Below are positions 9,285 through 23,466 of a stretch of 33,561 nucleotides of DNA, one piece after another. Positions within the stretch are counted from its first letter, which is position 1, and each line of letters starts with the position of its first letter. The translations under genes were made by a program, and so were the position numbers. Source of the stretch: a virus; the IMG/VR virus record IMGVR_UViG_3300033149_001893, positions 1 through 33,561 of that record, one strand, 5' to 3'. The notes beneath the pieces were generated by a model. That model saw nothing but the letters and a program-made list of their open reading frames with translations, was not told the origin of the DNA and made no database searches.

Positions 9285-9755
9285 ATGAAAGTCTTAATTC
9301 GTGATGCACATAGAGGGGATTTGCCGCTAATGATGAGTTGGCGGTCAAATCCCCTTTTGTATTTAGGCTTCTACTCCCAGCAAAATCCCCTCACTTGGGA
9401 AGAGCACACCGATTGGTTTTCCCACCGCAACAAAGACTGGCGAACTTTTATCGTTTTGGTTCAGGTGGACACAAGTTTGCGGGAAGTCGGTGTTGTCACA
9501 ATAGGGCAACTGGACAGCTGGTCGCCCGAAATCGGGTATTATATAGGTGAATTATCTCTGTGGGGCAAGGGTGTGGGCAAGAAAGCGGTAGAACTTGCTA
9601 TGGATTGGTTGCGGGCGAGGGATTACAAATATGTGCATACCACAGTCTTGAAAGACAATACTCGGTCTATTGGGCTACTCAAGGCTTGTGGTTTTAAGTA
9701 TGCCTGCGAAGCAAGGAAGGGTGAGGAAAGGTGGGAGAGGGAACTATATGGCTGA
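9285..9755 (+). CDS. GNAT N-acetyltransferase, PseH-like
   Basis: 156 residues, a complete single GNAT domain. Visible motifs are the N-terminal IRDAHRGDLPLMMSWRSNP, the PseH/RimJ-type TWEEHTDWF at 37-45, the acetyl-CoA loop WGKGVGKKA (93-101), and the end motif NTRSIGLLKACGFK (125-138). PseH and LegH acetylate the 4-amino group of a UDP-linked amino sugar in nonulosonic acid synthesis, and the dehydratase and aminotransferase that would make that substrate are in the same cassette. GNATs are broad, so the specific role comes from context. It is the first gene after promoter copy B and overlaps the next gene by 8 bases. Confidence 0.75.
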   Translation: MKVLIRDAHRGDLPLMMSWRSNPLLYLGFYSQQNPLTWEEHTDWFSHRNKDWRTFIVLVQVDTSLREVGVVTIGQLDSWSPEIGYYIGELSLWGKGVGKKAVELAMDWLRARDYKYVHTTVLKDNTRSIGLLKACGFKYACEARKGEERWERELYG

Positions 9756-10545: not shown

Positions 10546-11391
10546 TTGGGTAAAGAAAAAACTATAATCTTATTGGGCACGGGGTTCAGCTGTCGTTTCT
10601 GCGACTTTCAAAAAGATGCTGAAATCTACGGGGTCAATGGGGCTTACCGCATAATTGATATGATGCCAGAAAAGCTCAAGAAGCACTTCCGTATAGACAA
10701 GCTGTTTATGACTGATTATATGTGGAGTCCAGAGGGACGGATGTGCTTTGACGTTGATGATATGAACGAGCAGATAGCCAAATACGGCGGGACAATGTTC
10801 AGTATGCACGAATTGAGGCTCGGCAAGCACAGGCTGAACGCCAGGCGCTACCCCTACCACCAGATAGTAAAGCACTTCAGCGGGCTTGGCTACGAGAAGG
10901 GTGGCGAGGGGGCGGACTACTTTACCGACACCATAACCTATATGATAGCCTACGCCCTCTACAAGAACACCTACCTTGCCCAGAACGAACAGGGTGTTGT
11001 CAGGTTGGAGCTGAGCAGACCGTTGAAGTTCAGGCTGTTCGGCGTTGATATGTGCACCACCGTTGAGTATCAGGTATCAAAGGGCGGTGTTGAGTGGTGG
11101 CTTGGTATCGCAAGGGGTTTGGGTTGTGATATTGAGGTTTCCTACGGCTCGGCAATTCTGGCTAATCCGAGGGGTATGCCCTACGGGTGGAGAAAGAAGA
11201 TGGATTTGAGTCAAGTTGACCCCTACAACGTGCTGGGCAAAAGGAAGCCACCCCAGAAGAAGAAGTCATTGAATTTAGCCACTGGTTCGGAAAAGATACA
11301 GGCGATTATGGCAAGGTCGGCGCAGGAGGGGGCATACAAGGATGAGGCCGAGGGTGGAGAGGGTGTGATGCCCTTACATAGCACAAGATAA
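10546..11391 (+). CDS. Conserved phage Rossmann-like protein, possible glycosyltransferase
   Basis: 281 residues from TTG with GAGGGAA just upstream. The start ILLGTGFSCRFC is a nucleotide-binding-like loop. The centre has YFTDTITYMIAYAL, followed by RLFGVDMCTTVEY and a helix GVEWWLGIARGLGCDIEV. This order (GxGxS loop, then a TxSITxMxALA-like helix, then GVDM plus EY) recurs in a phage family of unknown function that resembles DUF115/sialyltransferase-type folds. It overlaps the first NeuB gene by one base, so it could act on the activated sugar made here. That is inference. The C-terminal 60 residues are basic and probably disordered. Confidence 0.5.
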   Translation: MGKEKTIILLGTGFSCRFCDFQKDAEIYGVNGAYRIIDMMPEKLKKHFRIDKLFMTDYMWSPEGRMCFDVDDMNEQIAKYGGTMFSMHELRLGKHRLNARRYPYHQIVKHFSGLGYEKGGEGADYFTDTITYMIAYALYKNTYLAQNEQGVVRLELSRPLKFRLFGVDMCTTVEYQVSKGGVEWWLGIARGLGCDIEVSYGSAILANPRGMPYGWRKKMDLSQVDPYNVLGKRKPPQKKKSLNLATGSEKIQAIMARSAQEGAYKDEAEGGEGVMPLHSTR

Positions 11392-12473
11392 TGTGGATAA
11401 GAAATAAAGAAATCACGCAGGATAAATTATTCATTATCTCGGAAGTCGGCAACCAATTCGGCGGTTCGGTGGAAAAAGCCAAGCGCCTTATTGATGTAAC
11501 CAAAGAGGCTGGGGCGGATGCGGTCAAGTTCATATTCTGGTTTCCCGACGAGATACTTGCTGATAAAAGCATAATCTACGAATACGAAACCAACTTCGTT
11601 CACCCCAACTACCCGAACACCAAGCCCGTTAAAACGAAGGTAGCCGAGCTGATGTTTGGATTGCTGGACAAGCTGAGGCTGACGGATGGTGAGTGGCGGG
11701 AAGTTCGGGATTATGCGCTGAACAAAGATGTGATATTTATGTCTACAATAATCTCTCCTGGCGGGATAGACCTTGAGAACTTCATTTTAATGGATGCAAT
11801 CAAGATTAGCTCGTGGGACTACAACTTTCCCGACCTGTGGCGGTGGATAGCGTGGCAGGGCAAGCCGATGCTGATAGACCTCGGCCCAGCCGACGAGGAA
11901 CTGCTGGCTAAAAATCTGTCTATCCTGAAGAGCGAATACAACACGAACTATGCCCTGCTACACTGCTTCCACACTCAGAATTATAACGAGATGAATATGC
12001 TGACCATACCCTATTTAAGGGAAAAGTTCAAGTGCCCTGTGGGGTATAGCTCAATAGACTACAACGATGAAACGGACATTATGGCGGTGGCGCTGGGGGC
12101 TTGTATCCTTGAAAAGAGATTAACACTGGACAGGAAGGGCGGTATTCTCCACGACAGCATCAGCAAAGAGCCAGACGAGTTCAAGGCTTATGTGGAGAAG
12201 ATGCGCCAGTGTAAGGAAGCGATGGGTAAAATGGGCGTGTTCCCCAGCCCAAACGACATTGAGCAAAGCAAAAAGTGGTTTCGGCGCATAGTCGCCGATG
12301 TAGATATAAGGAAAGGCGAAACGATAACTAGAGATATGCTGGAGGCAAAGCGTGGCAGAACAGGAATTGAGCCAGAACGCATCTGGGAGTTCGTTGGTCG
12401 GAGAGCCAGCCAAAATATCCCCAGAAACACAACCCTCACTGAAGAAATGGCAAGAGCTGAAGCTGACAATTGA
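11391..12473 (+). CDS. NeuB-family protein with SAF domain, degenerate active site
   Basis: 360 residues: a TIM-barrel NeuB domain (about 10-285) and a C-terminal SAF (antifreeze-like) domain (about 298-353), the full NeuB layout. NeuB enzymes condense phosphoenolpyruvate with an amino-hexose to make a nonulosonic acid. Kept here are ISEVG (Glu18), AVK (Lys46), LLHC (189-192) and the SAF-domain Arg region KRGRTGIEP (320-328). Changed are NHxG to NQFGG, KxQ to KFIF, YPTP absent, SDHT to SSIDY (220-224) and EKHF to EKRL (241-244). The last two normally supply both metal-binding histidines. Self-sufficient catalysis is therefore doubtful. It may be a partner for the second NeuB (16389-17063) or have a changed reaction. 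Confidence 0.85.
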   Translation: MWIRNKEITQDKLFIISEVGNQFGGSVEKAKRLIDVTKEAGADAVKFIFWFPDEILADKSIIYEYETNFVHPNYPNTKPVKTKVAELMFGLLDKLRLTDGEWREVRDYALNKDVIFMSTIISPGGIDLENFILMDAIKISSWDYNFPDLWRWIAWQGKPMLIDLGPADEELLAKNLSILKSEYNTNYALLHCFHTQNYNEMNMLTIPYLREKFKCPVGYSSIDYNDETDIMAVALGACILEKRLTLDRKGGILHDSISKEPDEFKAYVEKMRQCKEAMGKMGVFPSPNDIEQSKKWFRRIVADVDIRKGETITRDMLEAKRGRTGIEPERIWEFVGRRASQNIPRNTTLTEEMARAEADN

Positions 12474-13191
12474 GACGAAGGGTAAGCCCGACTGCTTCAT
12501 ACCCGCCAGAAAGAACAGCAAGAGGTTGAAGCATAAGAACAAGCAAGTGCTCTGTGGCAAGCCGTTGGTTCAGTGGGCGATTGATACTGCCCTTGAAGCG
12601 CAGATATTCGGCAAGATAATTGTTTCTTCCGATGATGAGGAAATCGTGGAGATGGCTTATGACAGCAGGGTGAAGCCGATGGAACTCTATCACAAATATG
12701 GGCTGGTCATACCTCACTACCGCCCGAAGTCGCTAGCCGAAGACAATATACAGATTAGACAATTGGTCAGGTATTTAATCTCCACCTATTCCTGTGGGCC
12801 GATATTCTGTGTGCTAACCCCCTGCAACCCGTTTAGAACAGCCCAAGACATAAGGGAGTGCTACGACCTGATATTCAAGAAGAAAGCCAACTATGTGATG
12901 AGTGTTAAGCGAGCCTCACCTCCTCCTCAGTGGGCTTGTAGGATAGAGAACAAGTTCCTTGAGATGTGGCAGGGGCACAGGGACTTGAAAAGGGCGCAGG
13001 AGCTAGAACCCCTATACTACCACGATGGTGGGGTAATCTTTGCGGTTACCGAGGCGTTTTTGCACGAATTTGACAAGGACTTTCACGGCACGAGGTGCTA
13101 CCCCTACTTTATGAAGCACAGCCTTGATATAGATACCAAAGAGGATTTAATGTTGGCTGAAGTAATAATGGCGAGAATAGGCGATGGATAG
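12352..13191 (+). CDS. CMP-nonulosonic acid synthetase (NeuA/PseF/LegF-like)
   Basis: 279 residues. It activates a nonulosonic acid with CTP to the CMP-sugar used by transferases. The nucleotide-binding motif CFIPARKNSKRLKHKN is at 48-63, followed by CGKPLVQWAI (68-77), IIVSSDDEEI (89-98), and near the C-terminus SLDIDTKEDLMLAE, which carries the Asp residues of the metal site. The GTG start has GGAGG 6 bases upstream, inside the NeuB gene, giving a 122-base overlap. It adds about 45 residues ahead of the normal family start, and these look unstructured. No in-frame ATG exists before the motif. Sugar specificity cannot be read from sequence. Confidence 0.88.
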   Translation: MAEQELSQNASGSSLVGEPAKISPETQPSLKKWQELKLTIETKGKPDCFIPARKNSKRLKHKNKQVLCGKPLVQWAIDTALEAQIFGKIIVSSDDEEIVEMAYDSRVKPMELYHKYGLVIPHYRPKSLAEDNIQIRQLVRYLISTYSCGPIFCVLTPCNPFRTAQDIRECYDLIFKKKANYVMSVKRASPPPQWACRIENKFLEMWQGHRDLKRAQELEPLYYHDGGVIFAVTEAFLHEFDKDFHGTRCYPYFMKHSLDIDTKEDLMLAEVIMARIGDG

Positions 13192-13534
13192 CAAGGTAAG
13201 AAGCTGGACTAAGTCAATAGTGTGGAGGCTGATAGGCGTATTCATACTCGGCGCTATCGTTTGGCTGTTCACACACAGCTGGGCGGAAACAACGCTTATC
13301 ACGATAGTATTCCACGCCATCAGAACCGTTCTCTACTACTTCCACGAACGGGTGTGGATGAAGATAAGCTGGGGCAGAAACGACATTATGCCCATCGAGC
13401 TGGGGTTGCTGTTCTTGAATAAGCTGACATCGGTAAACCCGAAATCTATGGCGGAATATTATAGCATACCCGAAAGCGAAGCAAGGGCTTGGATAGACCA
13501 AGCGAAGGAGTTGGCAGATGAACTTTCTGACTAA
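13184..13534 (+). CDS. DUF2061 membrane protein
   Basis: 116 residues, ATG overlapping the synthetase stop by 8 bases. The first 65 residues match the DUF2061 pattern: basic start RSWTKSIVWR, two membrane segments (about 16-31 and 38-52) and the signature YYFHERVWMKISWG. The rest is a soluble helical tail (IPESEARAWIDQAKEL). In bacteria DUF2061 is often next to or fused with sulfate-assimilation genes, and here the next gene is a CysH-type reductase. The molecular function of the family is unknown. Confidence 0.8.
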   Translation: MDSKVRSWTKSIVWRLIGVFILGAIVWLFTHSWAETTLITIVFHAIRTVLYYFHERVWMKISWGRNDIMPIELGLLFLNKLTSVNPKSMAEYYSIPESEARAWIDQAKELADELSD

Positions 13535-14180
13535 AGTGGACAAGGCAAAGGAACTCATTGAGCAAACACTTAAAACTTACAAGAGGGTGGCGGTGGCGTG
13601 TAGCTTCGGCAAGGACAGTATGGTCGTGCTTCACCTGTGCCTTGAGGTAAACCCCAGATTTCAGGTTTTTTCCATTATGACACCCTTCAAGTTCCGTGAA
13701 ACCTACCTCTACAAAGCCAAGATGGAGGCACTGTGGAGACTCAATATCAAGACCTACTGTGAAAACAAGATACCCGATGAATTCTACGACCTCTATCTTA
13801 CCAACCCCGATGCCTGCTGTAACCGATACAAGGTTGAGCAGACCAAGAAAGCAATCAAGGAACTCAATCTTGACGCTTGGATTACTGGGCTTCGCAGGAC
13901 AGAGGGCAGAACCCGAACCAACTATGACTTCGTAGAGGAGAAGGGCGGGCTAATAAAGGTAAACCCGATACTTGATTTTACCGAGTTAGACGTATGGAGG
14001 TATATAGCGGTTAACGAAATCCCGATAAACCCCTTATACGGACAGGGATACAGAAGTCTGGGCTGTGAGCCGTGCAGCCACAAGGAGAAGGATGAAAACG
14101 AAACCGAAAGAGAAGGCAGGTGGCAGGGGACTTCAAAGTGTGGGGGGGAGTGCGGAATTCACACTCAATTATTGCGCTAG
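13518..14180 (+). CDS. cysH: APS/PAPS reductase (CysH family)
   Basis: 220 residues. It reduces adenylyl sulfate or its 3'-phospho form to sulfite. The PP-loop is SFGKDSMVVLH (29-39). CC at 100-101 and GCEPC at 182-186 give the CC-x~80-CxxC pattern that holds a 4Fe-4S cluster in APS-type reductases. GLRRTEGRTR (124-133) and EREGRW (197-202) are conserved, and ECGIH (211-215) holds the catalytic Cys. All key residues appear intact. It overlaps the DUF2061 gene by 17 bases and the next gene by 89. Why it lies in a sugar cassette is unclear: it could support host sulfur metabolism or a modification. A DNA-phosphorothioation role seems less likely because no other dnd-like gene is seen. Confidence 0.82.
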   Translation: MNFLTKVDKAKELIEQTLKTYKRVAVACSFGKDSMVVLHLCLEVNPRFQVFSIMTPFKFRETYLYKAKMEALWRLNIKTYCENKIPDEFYDLYLTNPDACCNRYKVEQTKKAIKELNLDAWITGLRRTEGRTRTNYDFVEEKGGLIKVNPILDFTELDVWRYIAVNEIPINPLYGQGYRSLGCEPCSHKEKDENETEREGRWQGTSKCGGECGIHTQLLR

Positions 14181-15255
14181 GTGCTGTCAGCCAGATACCC
14201 GCCCGAAGATAGTTTTCAAAGACGGGGTGTGTGGGGCTTGCCTCTGGGAAGACGAGAAGGAGCGGATAGACTGGAAGGGGCGCAGGATAGCCCTGCATAT
14301 GCTTGCCCACAAAGCAAAAGAGAAAGCCGAAAAGAGAGGAACATACGACTGCGCCATTGGAGTATCTGGTGGCAAGGACAGCACCTTTCAAGCCCTGTAT
14401 GCCAAAGAAGAACTGGGCTTGAACTGCTTGCTGGTAAGCGTTGCGCCTGATTTACTGACCGACATCGGCAGGCATAACTTTGAGAACCTTGTCAATCAGG
14501 GCTTTGATTGCATCAGAATATATGTTAATCCGCAACTCCTGAAGCAACTGATGAGGCGGGACTTCCTCAAATACTGCCACTTCAGGAAGGCAACCGAGTA
14601 TCCTTTGTGGGCAAGCGTCTATCGGGTAGCCAGGGAGAAGAACATACCATTGATTATTCAGGGGGAGAACGCAGCGCTGACATTGGGTGTTTCCGAGGAT
14701 ATGAATACCGATTGGGATGCCGCCACCATCTACAAGACAAACACTCTCGCTGGGGCTACTGCGGGTGAGCATTACCCTGAAATTGACCCCGCCTATTTAC
14801 AACTATACATGTTCCCCGACCTATCTGATTGGGACGGCAAGGCTATCTGGCTGAATTACTTTCTGGAGGAATGGTCGCCGAGGCACAATGCGATGTTCGC
14901 TTTCAACCGAGGCTTGAAATTCAGGCAGGACAACCCCGAAGAGTTGGGCAGGATACACCCGTGGACTTGCCTTGATAGCGACTTCCATATCGTCAGCCAG
15001 ATGCACAAGTATTACAAATACGGCTTCGGGTTTGCTACCGATGAGGTTTGCTATGATATACGAGAAGGATGGCTGACAAGGGAACAAGGCTTTGAACTTA
15101 TAAAGAAATATGATGGGAAGTGTGCCCACAAGTATATCCAGAAATTCTGCGATTATATCGGTATAACCGAGAAGGAACACTGGCAAACAGTGGAGAAATT
15201 CAAGAGATACGACCCCTATGGGAGATGGGGAAATCAAACGGGAGGTGTGCTGTGA
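14092..15255 (+). CDS. N-acetyl sugar amidotransferase (PseA/WbpG-like)
   Basis: 387 residues from ATG with AAGGAGAAGG upstream. A GTG nine codons earlier is less likely. A zinc-binding set YCARC and VCGAC (Cys28, 31, 47, 50) and the IDW motif are followed by the ATP-pyrophosphatase loop VSGGKDST (91-98), as in the PseA/WbpG/LegA-type family, which turns an N-acetyl group on a sugar into an acetamidino group. Residues further on (QGENAALTLG, HPWTCLDSD) fit the same family. Known members need ammonia from HisH/HisF-like partners, and none is seen here. In this cassette it probably modifies the nonulosonic acid or a precursor. The N-terminal ~25 residues before the zinc motif are extra. Confidence 0.8.
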   Translation: MKTKPKEKAGGRGLQSVGGSAEFTLNYCARCCQPDTRPKIVFKDGVCGACLWEDEKERIDWKGRRIALHMLAHKAKEKAEKRGTYDCAIGVSGGKDSTFQALYAKEELGLNCLLVSVAPDLLTDIGRHNFENLVNQGFDCIRIYVNPQLLKQLMRRDFLKYCHFRKATEYPLWASVYRVAREKNIPLIIQGENAALTLGVSEDMNTDWDAATIYKTNTLAGATAGEHYPEIDPAYLQLYMFPDLSDWDGKAIWLNYFLEEWSPRHNAMFAFNRGLKFRQDNPEELGRIHPWTCLDSDFHIVSQMHKYYKYGFGFATDEVCYDIREGWLTREQGFELIKKYDGKCAHKYIQKFCDYIGITEKEHWQTVEKFKRYDPYGRWGNQTGGVL

Positions 15256-15389
15256 CAAGTGCGTTCAAGCTGGCGCTAAAAATGTTCGGGGCGATACTGG
15301 CAGTCATTGTGCTGGCGGTATTGGTAGTTCCAACGCTGGGACACAGTGGTAATTGGCTTCAGAAACCGCTTGAGTTCATTATGAGATGA
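15252..15389 (+). CDS. Small single-pass membrane protein
   Basis: 45 residues from GTG with GGAGG 6 bases upstream, overlapping the amidotransferase stop by 4 bases and the dehydratase start by 4. One strong membrane segment (MFGAILAVIVLAVLVVPTLG) is preceded by a short basic start and followed by a short tail. No family recognised. The tight coupling on both sides supports it as a real gene. Confidence 0.6.
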   Translation: MTSAFKLALKMFGAILAVIVLAVLVVPTLGHSGNWLQKPLEFIMR

Positions 15390-16210
15390 AGAACAAAACT
15401 ATTCTCATTACTGGTGGGGCAGGCTCGCTTGGGCAATCTCTAGCCGAAAAGCTCCGTGAATATGAGCCGAAGTCAATCCGCATCCTAGACCACAGCGAAT
15501 ACTTCCAGTATGAAATGGTAGAGCACTTCAAGAACTACGAAGTATACCGCTTTCTAGTGGGGGATATACGGGACTTGCGGAGACTCAAGCGTGCCTTTGA
15601 GGGTGTGGATATTGTGATACACGCCGCCGCCCTCAAGCACGTTCACCTGTGCGAGTATAATCCGATAGAGGCAATACGAACAAACGTGGAGGGTTCGGTC
15701 AATGTAGCTGACGCCGCCTTAGATTGCGGGGTTGAGAAGGTTCTCGGAATATCCAGCGACAAGGCGGTTCACCCTATCAACATCTACGGTGCTTCAAAAC
15801 TCACTATGGAGAAATTGTTTACCCACTCCAATGTCTACGGCAAGACCAAGTTTAGCTGTGTCAGGTTCGGTAACTTTGGGGGCAAGGGCAGCTTCCCCGA
15901 AAGGATTAAGAAGTGTGCCGAAACAGGTGAGCCGATAGAGTTGACCAACAGGTTTATGGTGCGCTACTGGATACCAATAATTGATGCCGTGGAGTTCTCC
16001 ATAAGGTGCGTTGAGATGATGCAGGGTGGCGAGATATTCGTGCCCAAGATGGAAGAGAAACACATCGGCAGAATGATAAAAGAGCTTGCGCCCAATGCTG
16101 AAGTCAAGATGGTGGGTTCGCGGGTTGGCGAAAAGGTGGTTGAGAAATTGTGGGTTGCAGGCTACGAGAAAGCCGAGGACAAGGGGGACTATTGGGTAAT
16201 AGGAGCCTAA
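15386..16210 (+). CDS. UDP-N-acetylglucosamine 4,6-dehydratase-like (PseB/LegB)
   Basis: 274 residues, short-chain dehydrogenase/reductase fold. It would convert a UDP-N-acetylhexosamine to the 4-keto-6-deoxy sugar, the first step to pseudaminic/legionaminic-type sugars. Visible are the NAD(P) loop TGGAGSLG (9-16), the PseB/CapD-type AALKHVHLCEYNPIEAIRTN (81-100), the catalytic SSDKA (123-127) in place of the usual TDKA, the YGASK motif (Tyr134, Lys138), and FGNFGGKGS (about 162-170). Length and motifs fit PseB-like soluble enzymes rather than the long membrane-bound CapD type. Whether it also epimerises at C5 cannot be told. The ATG overlaps the previous stop. Confidence 0.82.
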   Translation: MKNKTILITGGAGSLGQSLAEKLREYEPKSIRILDHSEYFQYEMVEHFKNYEVYRFLVGDIRDLRRLKRAFEGVDIVIHAAALKHVHLCEYNPIEAIRTNVEGSVNVADAALDCGVEKVLGISSDKAVHPINIYGASKLTMEKLFTHSNVYGKTKFSCVRFGNFGGKGSFPERIKKCAETGEPIELTNRFMVRYWIPIIDAVEFSIRCVEMMQGGEIFVPKMEEKHIGRMIKELAPNAEVKMVGSRVGEKVVEKLWVAGYEKAEDKGDYWVIGA

Positions 16211-16212
16211 CA

Positions 16213-16401
16213 ATGAAATGCGATAGATGTGGCAAGAAACTAACACTGGGGCATCTGACGCTGGCCCATTTTTACCCCAAGTTTTTCCCCAACCCTCCGC
16301 CAATTGTTCGTGGGGACAAGCATTGGGTTGTTTGGAACAAGGATGGGGATTGGGTTTATTGCTCCAAGAAATGCGCAAAGGCAGACGGATGGCGATTATA
16401 A
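16213..16401 (+). CDS. Small Cys-rich zinc-binding-like protein
   Basis: 62 residues, ATG two bases after the dehydratase stop, with GGAGCC as a modest ribosome site. KCDRCGKKL at the start and YCSKKCAKAD near the end give four Cys (CxxC and CxxxC), a treble-clef or zinc-ribbon pattern. The middle is aromatic and Pro-rich (FYPKFFPNPPP). It overlaps the second NeuB gene by 13 bases. Function unknown. Confidence 0.6.
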   Translation: MKCDRCGKKLTLGHLTLAHFYPKFFPNPPPIVRGDKHWVVWNKDGDWVYCSKKCAKADGWRL

Positions 16402-17063
16402 TAGCTGAAATCGGGCAAAACCACTGCGGGGACATCGGGCTTGCGAGGAAACTGATACTCCTTGCCAAGAATAACAGGGCTACATATTGTAAATTTCAGC
16501 TCTACGACCACAATATGTTGTATGGGGACACTGATATACCAAACGTAGAGCTGTCTAAAGAGCAGGCATTTGAACTATTCAACTTCGGCAAGGACAACGG
16601 CATTGAGGTGTTCTTCTCCGTGTTTGATGTGGAGAGGGTGAAGTGGTGTGAGGAAATGGGAGTTAAGAGATATAAGGTAGCTTGCGATAAACACACAAAC
16701 ACAAATTTAATGGGGGCGCTACGGGATACGGGTAAAATGATTTACATTTCAAGTAGTTGCTATTATGTGCCCTGGGATTTCAGCAAAGCAATGGTTTTAT
16801 ACTGTGTTCCCCGTTATCCCACCCCCCCAGATATACTTGAACTGGACTATGGCCTCAACTGGGAGGCAGGGTGGGCACAGGGTTTCTCCGACCACACCAT
16901 AGGGTTAGACTGCGCCAAGATAGCAATAGCAAGGGGCGCACAGATTATAGAAAAACATTTTGCCATAGACCACAAGACGGGCATAGACGCAAGGTGGAGT
17001 ATGGCACCAAGGGAACTTCGTGAATTGAGGCGCTGGGCTGATGTGTGTAAGGAGGTATTATGA
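16389..17063 (+). CDS. Short NeuB-family synthase lacking the SAF domain
   Basis: 224 residues from ATG 16389. An upstream in-frame start exists, but that stretch is the out-of-frame shadow of the zinc gene. It is only the NeuB barrel; the usual C-terminal SAF domain is absent and no room is left for it. It keeps the active-site motifs: IAEIGQNHCGD (Glu7, His12), CKFQ (34-37), YPTP (143-146), FSDHT (His169) and EKHF (His190), so both metal-binding histidines are present. The usual family length is about 330-360. It lies in the cassette between a zinc-like gene and the aminotransferase, and overlaps the next gene by ATGA. It may depend on the SAF domain of the 11391-12473 product. Confidence 0.85.
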   Translation: MAIIIAEIGQNHCGDIGLARKLILLAKNNRATYCKFQLYDHNMLYGDTDIPNVELSKEQAFELFNFGKDNGIEVFFSVFDVERVKWCEEMGVKRYKVACDKHTNTNLMGALRDTGKMIYISSSCYYVPWDFSKAMVLYCVPRYPTPPDILELDYGLNWEAGWAQGFSDHTIGLDCAKIAIARGAQIIEKHFAIDHKTGIDARWSMAPRELRELRRWADVCKEVL

Positions 17064-17263
17064 AGTATTACCCTATACAGTGCCCCAGTTGCACCTATTG
17101 GCGGGGGGAGTGCCAACGTGATAACCCTCGTGTTGTTAGGCTCGTTCAGGGGCTTTATGGCGACCACAAGAAGGGGCTGGGTGAAATTAGGCGACGGGTT
17201 AAGGACACAGATGGGAAAATCAAAGAGGTAGAGATTTGCCCCGACTTTGAGCAAAAGATATGA
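17060..17263 (+). CDS. Small Cys-containing hypothetical protein
   Basis: 67 residues, ATG overlapping the NeuB stop with AAGGAGGT upstream. It has CPSC at 8-11, Cys18 and Cys60 (EICPDFE), a possible metal-binding set. The rest is basic and helical (GLGEIRRRVKDTDGK). It is coupled to both the short NeuB gene and the aminotransferase (4-base overlaps), suggesting a shared role, but it matches no family I know. Confidence 0.55.
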   Translation: MKYYPIQCPSCTYWRGECQRDNPRVVRLVQGLYGDHKKGLGEIRRRVKDTDGKIKEVEICPDFEQKI

Positions 17264-18387
17264 TTGCCAAAGAGGAAATCAGAGCTGTAACCGAAGTATT
17301 GCGTTCTGGGATGCTGAGTGGCTTCCGAGCCAAGCCCGATTACTTCAAGGGTGGCAAGGCGATAAACGAGTTTGAGGAACGCTTTGCCGAATACATCGGC
17401 TCAAAGCACGCCGTGACATTCAACTCGGCTACCTCTGCGCTACATACAGCCCTGCTCAGTTGCGATATTAGACCAAGTGACAGGGTTTTAGTCCCCTGCT
17501 ATACATTCAGTGCTTCGGCGTCCTGTATTTTGATGTGCGGCGCAGAACCCGTGTTCTGTGATATTGACCCCCTCTCCTTCAATATGCACATTGATATACC
17601 CCGCATACAAAGCCTTGACCCCCTTCCCAAAGCTGCAATTATTGTTCACCTTCAGGGGCACCCAGCGCATAAGGCGCTGATAAGGGCGAAGGGTATTTTC
17701 TTGGGCAAGTGGGCAAGCAGAAAGAATATAAAGATAATTGAAGACGCCTCGCAATCAATCGGTGCATCTTATCTTGGTAAGAACACTGGCACTTGGGGCG
17801 ACTGCGGGGTATTCTCCTTCAATCAGTTCAAGCACATAAACTGCGGTGAGGGCGGAATGCTTGTAACTGACAATGACGACATAGCGCACAAGGCAAGGCT
17901 GATACGAAACCACGCTGAAAACTTTACTGATATGCTGGGCTACAACTATCGTATGACCGAAGTAACGGCGGCAATCGGGATAGAGCAGTTAAAGAAGCTC
18001 CCCGATGAACTATATCGGCGCAGGTGCATTGCGCTGAAACTCAACCACGAACTGGACAAGATAGATGGATTAACGCCCCCTATCGTCTACCCCGATTGCT
18101 CGCACTCTTGGTATACCTATGCGGTGAAATACAATAATCCTTTTATGACGAGGGAGAAATTCCAGGCCGAGATGGACAAGAATGGTATCTACTTCGGGGG
18201 TAAATATGTAACCCCGCTTCACCTTCTGCCCCTATTCCAGCAGTATGCGCCTGAAGGCGGTTGCCCCGTAGCAGAACGAATGTGGAAGACCGAACTCATC
18301 GTTACTGATTTCAAGAAGTGGTCTTATAACCCTGACAGGGTAGCGGGCACAGTTAGGAAAGTTCTAGGGGTTGACAACCCCTTGTGA
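17260..18387 (+). CDS. DegT/DnrJ/EryC1-type PLP aminotransferase (PseC/LegC-like)
   Basis: 375 residues, full length for the family. It would transfer an amino group to the 4-keto sugar made by the PseB-like enzyme. Motifs are NSATSALHTALL (55-66, phosphate-binding), VPCYTFSASAS (78-88), IIEDASQSIGA (159-169), and FSFNQFKHINCGEGG with the PLP-binding Lys191. The C-terminal HSWYTYAV and the Pro-rich ending also fit. It is the last biosynthetic gene of the cassette. A sigma70-like promoter starts within its final codons. Substrate choice is inferred from neighbours. Confidence 0.88.
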   Translation: MIAKEEIRAVTEVLRSGMLSGFRAKPDYFKGGKAINEFEERFAEYIGSKHAVTFNSATSALHTALLSCDIRPSDRVLVPCYTFSASASCILMCGAEPVFCDIDPLSFNMHIDIPRIQSLDPLPKAAIIVHLQGHPAHKALIRAKGIFLGKWASRKNIKIIEDASQSIGASYLGKNTGTWGDCGVFSFNQFKHINCGEGGMLVTDNDDIAHKARLIRNHAENFTDMLGYNYRMTEVTAAIGIEQLKKLPDELYRRRCIALKLNHELDKIDGLTPPIVYPDCSHSWYTYAVKYNNPFMTREKFQAEMDKNGIYFGGKYVTPLHLLPLFQQYAPEGGCPVAERMWKTELIVTDFKKWSYNPDRVAGTVRKVLGVDNPL

Positions 18388-22227: not shown

Positions 22228-23466
22228 GTGGCGACTGAACGACAAAGCCCAGATGCCATAATCACCCAGACCAATCTGAGCGGTGTAATTGGGGATATTC
22301 AGGATGACCCAGATAGCCCAGATGCTAATTGGTGGACAGCGGTAACCGAGGGCAGTGATACCTTATGCCACGTAAGTTTCCCTGCTCCAACGGGTAACCC
22401 TACAACTGGTGCTGACTTACAAGAGTTCAAAATCTGGGTAAGGCAAACTCCTGGCTCGGCCAAAGACCCCGATGTCAGGATAGAGCTTTATGAAAATGGC
22501 GGGCAAATTGCCGTTTTACTGGCTGACACTACGGTTACCAGCGAAACAGGAGTTTTGCACTCAGGCACTTGGGATGCCAGCTCCCTAGCTAACGCTGATG
22601 GCTCTGGTGTTGAGATTTATATCTACGGCACTGGTGCAAGTGCTGGCCCCAACAAGGGGACACTTGAGGTTGGTGCTGCTGAGTGGAATGTAACCTACGA
22701 CATCGGGGGCACCACCCATTATGGCTCAGCAACCCTATCTGGCACGGGCACCCTAGCTGGCAATGGCAGGGTAATACTTACTGGCAAGGCCACTTTAGAT
22801 GGCTCTGGTTTGCTCTCGGCAATAGGGCGAGGCACCTATGTAGGTAAAGCAACCCTTGCGGGAACGGGCAGCCTCTCCGCTATTGGTAGAAGGATTGTAA
22901 CTGGCATAGCAACACTATCAGGAACGGGCGCATTAAGTGCTATAGGTAATGTTTTCAAACTCGGTGCTGCCACCCTTTCTGGTGTGGGAAGCCTGACAGC
23001 CAAAGCCGTTGTAGCTCTTAGGGGCAAGGCTACGCTGGCAGGCACAGGTTCGCTGTCGGCAATAGGCAGGAGAATAACAAGGGGGGCAGCTACATTGAGT
23101 GGTATCGGCACACTATCTGCTATTGGTAGGCGGGTGGTTACTGGTGTGGCTACCCTGTCGGGAAGCGGAAGCCTTGGTGCCATTGGGCGACGTGTTGTAA
23201 CTGGGACAGCCACTCTATCTGGAGTTGGCACGCTGGTTGCTGGTGGAGTGAGAACACTTGTCGGCAAAGCCACCCTAAGTGGAACAGGTGCGCTATCAGC
23301 CATTGGCACAATAATAGGGCAAACACTTGACCGAATATTAAAAATCCACACGGGGCTTACCATTAGCCGAGATTTGAATATCACCGCCTCGCAAACAAAG
23401 GCGGTTTCAATAACGCCGTCTTTAAGTGTGGGGCTTTCAATAACTCCGAACACAGAGGAGAAATAA
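22228..23466 (+). CDS. Fibre-like protein with ten 20-residue repeats
   Basis: 412 residues from GTG with TAGGAGTGA upstream. Residues 1-160 form a beta-rich domain (LQEFKIWVRQTPGSAKDPDV region), perhaps jelly-roll. Residues 165-364 are ten repeats of exactly 20 residues with consensus TGxATLSGTGxLSAIGRRxV. The last 48 residues are beta-rich (ITPSLSVGLSITP). Regular Gly/Ser/Thr/Ala-rich repeats with aliphatic positions fit a beta-solenoid or triple-stranded fibre. It is probably part of the receptor-binding apparatus. Family not recognised. Confidence 0.6.
   Translation: MATERQSPDAIITQTNLSGVIGDIQDDPDSPDANWWTAVTEGSDTLCHVSFPAPTGNPTTGADLQEFKIWVRQTPGSAKDPDVRIELYENGGQIAVLLADTTVTSETGVLHSGTWDASSLANADGSGVEIYIYGTGASAGPNKGTLEVGAAEWNVTYDIGGTTHYGSATLSGTGTLAGNGRVILTGKATLDGSGLLSAIGRGTYVGKATLAGTGSLSAIGRRIVTGIATLSGTGALSAIGNVFKLGAATLSGVGSLTAKAVVALRGKATLAGTGSLSAIGRRITRGAATLSGIGTLSAIGRRVVTGVATLSGSGSLGAIGRRVVTGTATLSGVGTLVAGGVRTLVGKATLSGTGALSAIGTIIGQTLDRILKIHTGLTISRDLNITASQTKAVSITPSLSVGLSITPNTEEK
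22720..23319 (+). repeat. Ten tandem 60-bp coding repeats
   Basis: Ten units of 60 bp, each encoding 20 residues, with no gaps. The protein pattern is well kept (ATLSGTGxLSAIG), but DNA identity between units is moderate because of silent change, so selection on the protein is suggested. Units 3, 6 and 7 are closest to each other; unit 5 is the most divergent. Confidence 0.85.

Follow-up and report, generated by a model that had tools for sequence, protein, structure and literature searches.

It is held that a NeuB enzyme depends on its partner subunit for a SAF (antifreeze-like) domain, in which one arginine is essential. The NeuB fold itself, SAF domain swapping and the existence of SAF-less NeuBs, such as 6ncs, are already known. 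Here we describe two NeuB-family proteins that are both encoded within a phage sugar operon, located between the head genes and the tail-side genes of the IMG/VR virus record IMGVR_UViG_3300033149_001893, whose whole stretch of 33,561 nucleotides is termed the window; the window features given below with coordinates in the form start..end are located on the plus strand. The short protein (224 residues, 16389..17063) is an eight-strand TIM barrel with intact metal ligands and no SAF domain, and the long one (360 residues, 11391..12473) is a TIM barrel with a C-terminal SAF domain that has lost the canonical metal site and belongs to a clade named EKR here for its motif. An earlier note on this DNA had proposed that the two form a split synthase, in which the long protein donates its SAF domain to the short one. 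Our analysis favors another reading: the short protein is probably a working synthase, and the EKR protein is a distinct and conserved paralogue that belongs to the same pathway, having either altered chemistry or a regulatory role and being more than a mere lender of its SAF domain.

The fold of the short protein is shared with Neisseria meningitidis NeuB (1xuu/1xuz, 2wqp), and it retains the equivalents of His215, His236, Asp247, Lys53, Lys129 and Tyr186 (Neisseria numbering, as is used hereafter for homologous positions), but it has no SAF domain. Its metal ligands (16893..16958) are His169 (16893-16895, within SDHT) and His190 (16956-16958, within EKHF), and the motifs NHCGD, CKFQ and YPTP are present as well, as had been described in the earlier note together with the end of the protein ahead of any SAF domain. 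In a Pfam search, the short copy matched PF03102 at 110 bits, whereas a search with the SAF family PF08666 gave no match and no SAF domain bearing Arg314 was found. Since SAF-less NeuBs exist, this absence excludes the two-domain type only. The predicted structure is a complete eight-strand barrel (predicted local distance difference test, pLDDT, 92.8), and its best Foldseek match is the sialic acid synthetase 6ncs of Leptospira borgpetersenii (template modelling, TM, score 0.92), which is also the nearest to it among solved structures (28% identity) and is likewise SAF-less, although it is bacterial and longer at 285 residues. Scores fall below the NCBIfam equivalog cut-offs for both NeuB_NnaB (114 bits vs 399.65) and PseI (99 vs 340.25).

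Open reading frame (ORF) tools lengthen the short copy to 278 residues, starting at 16227; the added residues cover a small ORF that lies upstream in a different frame, and homology begins at residue 3 of the 224-residue form. At the other end, its stop codon is overlapped by the start of the next ORF (ATGA), and a 52% identical relative in the viral contig L085 terminates on the identical residues, CKEVL. Because of this overlap and this shared ending, the early end of the short copy is not a random truncation, and truncation or frameshift was rejected as the source of its missing SAF domain. Small cysteine-rich ORFs at 16214-16401 and 17060-17263 flank the short gene and overlap its start and stop codons, respectively.

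Single-protein scans of IMG/VR recovered only one relative for the long copy and one distant match for the short copy, and alignments of the pair or of each family were needed. Scans with relatives of the short copy yielded 17 records encoding SAF-less NeuBs of 211-238 residues within sugar clusters, including one pair of near copies (L174 and L175) and one very diverged member (L171). His215, His236, Asp247, Lys53, Lys129 and Glu234 are kept in 16 of the 16 tabulated short proteins. Whole-record searches found no second NeuB in 15 of the 17 records, and a Pfam SAF search of these 15 found no SAF domain, stand-alone SAF proteins included, with the limit that every viral record is linear and could be a fragment. 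The short NeuBs nearest to that of the window (45-53% identical) are encoded by L085, L167, L168 and L169, which have in common with the window both the head genes (34-57% identity in the major head protein) and the operon position, and L167 and L168 carry tail-side homologues after the sugar operon as well. These and other members of the minimal phage NeuB family are similar in length to the short copy; what distinguishes them from the window is the lack of EKR and SAF. The operon of L167, L168 and L169 is unbroken from the dehydratase to the aminotransferase and includes the short NeuB and a cytidine triphosphate (CTP)-transferase-like gene, with EKR absent; the L085 contig stops inside the operon, just after the short NeuB. 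In L169, a homologue of the conserved gene found at 10546..11391 in the window is followed directly by PseF, whereas the window has EKR between the two. Together with the window, the syntenic phages make a natural experiment, in which the same operon exists both with the long copy and in its absence. More broadly, SAF-less NeuBs are common without EKR, as 32 of the 104 other NeuBs in the viral set lack the Arg314 column. Given that the short family usually occurs without EKR, the short protein probably needs no borrowed domain, and the proposal that it depends upon the SAF domain of the long copy is not supported by the 15 records, the syntenic phages among them.

Other arrangements of multiple NeuBs were also encountered. 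SAF-less NeuBs of a GYSGHE/ERHI type are found beside a second, longer NeuB in L020, L023-L026, L033, L038, L041, L042, L044, L047, L064 and L123, and L049 (8542-17774) has three NeuBs in one viral locus, one of which has Asn in place of the second metal histidine (EKN).

The long protein has its best structural match in Campylobacter jejuni PseI (8h2c, pseudaminic acid synthase; Foldseek 3e-30, TM 0.83-0.87), and the likeness extends to the gene context, as the window operon has PseB, PseC, PseF and PseH-like genes. However, its identity to PseI is 27%, it is far under the PseI NCBIfam cut-off (165 vs 340 bits), and its metal ligands are lost. The predicted model is a barrel plus SAF (pLDDT 94.4), in agreement with Pfam matches to PF03102 (134 bits) and PF08666 (32 bits, residues 300-353). 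The SAF domain (12288..12449) contains KRGRTGIEP, and Arg321 (codon 12351-12353) corresponds to Arg314 of the Neisseria enzyme; Glu25, Lys53, Lys129 and Glu234 are kept as well. Within the lost-ligand region (12054..12119), Ile222 (12054-12056) stands for His215 and Arg243 (12117-12119) for His236, while His254 (12150..12152) replaces Asp247 and His194 (11970..11972) replaces Tyr186. The motifs read NQFGG in place of NHxG, SSID in place of SDHT and EKRL in place of EKHF, and YPTP is absent, all of which agrees with the earlier description of this protein. Among 101 other NeuBs, His215 is found in 101 and His236, Asp247 and Tyr186 are each found in 100, whereas all four are missing from the long copy; such substitutions are far beyond chance. 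Because Ile222 and Arg243 occupy both metal-histidine sites, we class the long copy as a homologue and not as a NeuB synthase, and since its metal ligands are absent and its SAF arginine is kept, it probably does not act as an ordinary synthase. To that extent, the earlier suggestion of a non-catalytic partner is supported, but the pocket also has conserved residues of its own, for which a protein that only donated SAF would have no use.

These residues are a property of the whole EKR clade, whose members were found by scanning with a long-copy alignment and were defined by His236->Arg, Asp247->His, a kept Arg314 and placement in one supported clade. EKR proteins are encoded by the viral contigs L001, L006, L007, L008, L009, L010, L011, L012, L043, L121 and L135 and by three Desulfobacterota genomes (L088, L089 and G233), which together with the window bring the number of loci to 15, with several near copies among them. 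The 12 non-redundant members, the long copy included, form a single clade in the tree (Shimodaira-Hasegawa-like approximate likelihood ratio test, SH-aLRT, 99), and across 395 Desulfobacterota genomes EKR is separated from all other NeuBs by a score gap of 513 vs 278 bits. Both His236->Arg and Asp247->His are present in 12 of the 12 tabulated EKR proteins and Tyr186->His in 11 of them, G233 being the one that differs, whereas Glu25, Lys53, Lys129, Glu234 and Arg314 are kept throughout. Invariant columns are concentrated in the pocket (8/17 vs 30/303 elsewhere, p = 2e-4), and the ratio of nonsynonymous to synonymous substitution rates (dN/dS) is 0.06-0.07 in three EKR pairs, similar to that of the partner genes (0.03-0.07). 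Such patterns of conservation indicate that EKR is under selection as a family, with active-site residues that are its own, and is not a decayed copy. The motif GHHH was considered as a universal new metal site of EKR, and this candidate was weakened by the window, which has ILHD with a single His, and by L001, which has GHHQ. The window protein shares the EKR motif, the Asp247->His change and the SAF domain with the rest of the clade, but it differs in having the most diverged barrel and a SAF-less partner. L001 is a diverged contig that encodes both an EKR protein (42% identical to that of the window) and a short NeuB. Order-level searches around the Desulfobacterota matches found no additional EKR, INPHARED phages gave weak matches only, and the L088 EKR protein gave plasmid matches of no more than 34% identity, the EKR motif having been left unexamined in them.

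The earlier note had called for a check of related phages for co-occurrence and matched loss, and these two expectations fared differently. A NeuB with intact metal histidines accompanies EKR at 15 of 15 loci. In the first scan, this was the case for 12 of 12 EKR loci, whereas two NeuBs were present in 15 of 76 other loci (Fisher p = 8e-8, calculated from the 12 first-scan loci with related loci treated as independent). In contrast, the partner keeps its own SAF at 13 of the 15 loci, counting as SAF-bearing the partner in G233, whose match runs through the SAF part of the profile, and a SAF-less partner is found only in the window and L001. Therefore, no matching of the two losses is seen: SAF has been lost in short-family NeuBs that have no EKR beside them, and the metal site is changed in EKR proteins whose partners retain SAF. 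If anything, SAF loss is rarer in the partners of EKR, albeit in a biased sample of 14 EKR loci. The arrangement of the two genes varies. In L007-L012 and L135, the EKR ORF runs straight into the partner ORF; in L088, L089 and G233, the two are ~2-3 kb apart and PseF- and PseG-type genes come after EKR. PseF directly follows EKR at five loci, namely the window, L001, L088, L089 and G233.

Based upon these features, a scheme can be proposed in which the phage encodes a pathway for a pseudaminic-acid-like nonulosonic sugar, with separate roles for its two NeuB proteins. The two families, their residues and distribution and the complete barrels of the models are observed, whereas the activities are inferred. 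The short protein would be a minimal SAF-less TIM-barrel enzyme joining phosphoenolpyruvate (PEP) and the sugar via the usual two-histidine metal site and, judging from its relatives, would need no SAF from another protein. In EKR, the metal site would have been swapped for fixed new residues with retention of the PEP-side residues and the SAF arginine, and the protein most likely acts beside a normal synthase in the same pathway, either as an enzyme of changed chemistry or as a regulatory subunit. Certainly, several points weigh against this scheme. Arg314 is essential in Neisseria NeuB, as stated in a passage of PMC6795526 that cites Joseph 2013, and hence the SAF-less short family must replace it; no replacement was seen in the short proteins. 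The viral records may be fragments, and a host NeuB could supply a SAF domain. The constant company of a histidine-intact NeuB at EKR loci would fit a heteromer as well. Lastly, the EKR barrel of the window has lost 8 of 42 clade-conserved positions, the highest number of any member, compared to 0 of 4 scored SAF positions, which is a weak hint of drift toward a use of the SAF domain only.

The last of these observations, the complementary residue losses of the two proteins in the window and in L001, and the SAF arginine retained by every EKR protein are all in accord with a long protein that is itself non-catalytic and provides the SAF domain for the catalytic short one, an arrangement that would apply at least to this phage and L001. 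We regard this as improbable, since so many short-family records, including syntenic ones, have neither a second NeuB nor a SAF domain, most EKR partners have a SAF of their own, SAF-less viral NeuBs are common without EKR, and selection acts on the EKR pocket residues; SAF donation is possible only as a local arrangement in these two phages. It is also quite improbable that EKR is an obligate non-canonical subunit of mixed NeuB oligomers in phages and Desulfobacterota, and that in the window phage and L001 this has evolved into a split enzyme whose only SAF domain is that of EKR. A more general role as a regulatory or structural pseudoenzyme that forms mixed oligomers with a histidine-intact NeuB, whether SAF-bearing or not, would explain both the constant pairing, as opposed to 15 of 76 other loci, and the loci at which the EKR ORF runs into that of its partner. 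However, two enzymes of one pathway predict equal co-occurrence, the two genes are ~2-3 kb apart in the three Desulfobacterota genomes, with PseF- and PseG-type genes following EKR, and the PEP-side pocket residues are invariant in EKR, and so this role seems rather unlikely.

A stronger contender, though still a tentative one, is that EKR is an enzyme that makes or modifies a different nonulosonic acid, its metal site being a new one built from His247, often His246, His248 and His186, or its mechanism being metal-free. Fixed new residues occupy the old metal positions, the PEP-side Lys53, Lys129, Glu234 and usually Ser213 are retained, selection is purifying, and PseF is the next gene at five loci. 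Against this are the reduction of GHHH in the window, its alteration in L001, the absence of His186 from G233 and the lack of any known activity. The missing canonical metal ligands could also suggest that the long copy is simply a decaying duplicate without function, but this is very hard to reconcile with a clade of its own, fixed replacements, a high-confidence model and long open frames at all 15 loci, and pseudogene status was rejected for its clade from the low dN/dS of its relatives.

The remainder of the operon is of a pseudaminic type, with PseB, PseC, PseH, NeuB/PseI and PseF-like genes found together. A PseF-like CMP (cytidine monophosphate)-sugar synthetase (12352..13191) adjoins the long copy, an EKR-PseF pair also seen in L001, L088, L089 and G233. 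It is accompanied by a PseB-like UDP-GlcNAc (uridine diphosphate N-acetylglucosamine) 4,6-dehydratase (15386..16210), a PseC-like aminotransferase (17260..18387), a PseH-like GNAT acetyltransferase under the PseH cut-off (9285..9755), and a WbuX/PseA-type N-acetyl sugar amidotransferase (14065..15255). As every Pse-type match is under its equivalog cut-off, the product is described as a pseudaminic-like sugar and the exact sugar is not assigned. The conserved protein at 10546..11391, to which no function is assigned, adjoins the sugar operon in the syntenic phages also. The operon further includes a CysH protein resembling 3'-phosphoadenosine-5'-phosphosulfate (PAPS) reductase (13518..14180); such a gene is found in the operon of only the two records with both EKR and a short NeuB, the other being L001 (6703-7401, 47% identical), and a BLAST search with the window protein gave no match in the other virus loci searched. 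Related proteins (32-42% identity by BLAST), which we take to be LmbE/PIG-L-like, are encoded at 12362-13075 of L087 and 13540-14265 of L009 and recur in sugar clusters with either NeuB family. Adjoining the tail-side genes of the window, 22228-23466 encodes a protein of 412 residues in which a unit of ~15 residues, of the type ATLSGTGSLSAIGRR, is repeated in tandem many times.

Our searches of a collection of open-access papers, which lacks most subscription papers, turned up no description of the EKR changes in a NeuB, of a NeuB pseudoenzyme or heteromer, or of a SAF-less synthase, in keeping with the statement of the earlier note that no such heterodimer was known to it. Likewise, the portion of PMC7371886 dealing with the specificity residues of NeuB mentions no EKR-type variant. 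A phage family with a catalytic barrel and usually no SAF anywhere makes the SAF requirement directly testable in small proteins. EKR, in turn, a conserved paralogue of NeuB in which the metal site has been rebuilt, is likely annotated plainly as sialic acid synthase, and pathway predictions for nonulosonic acid clusters would be misled by such a label.

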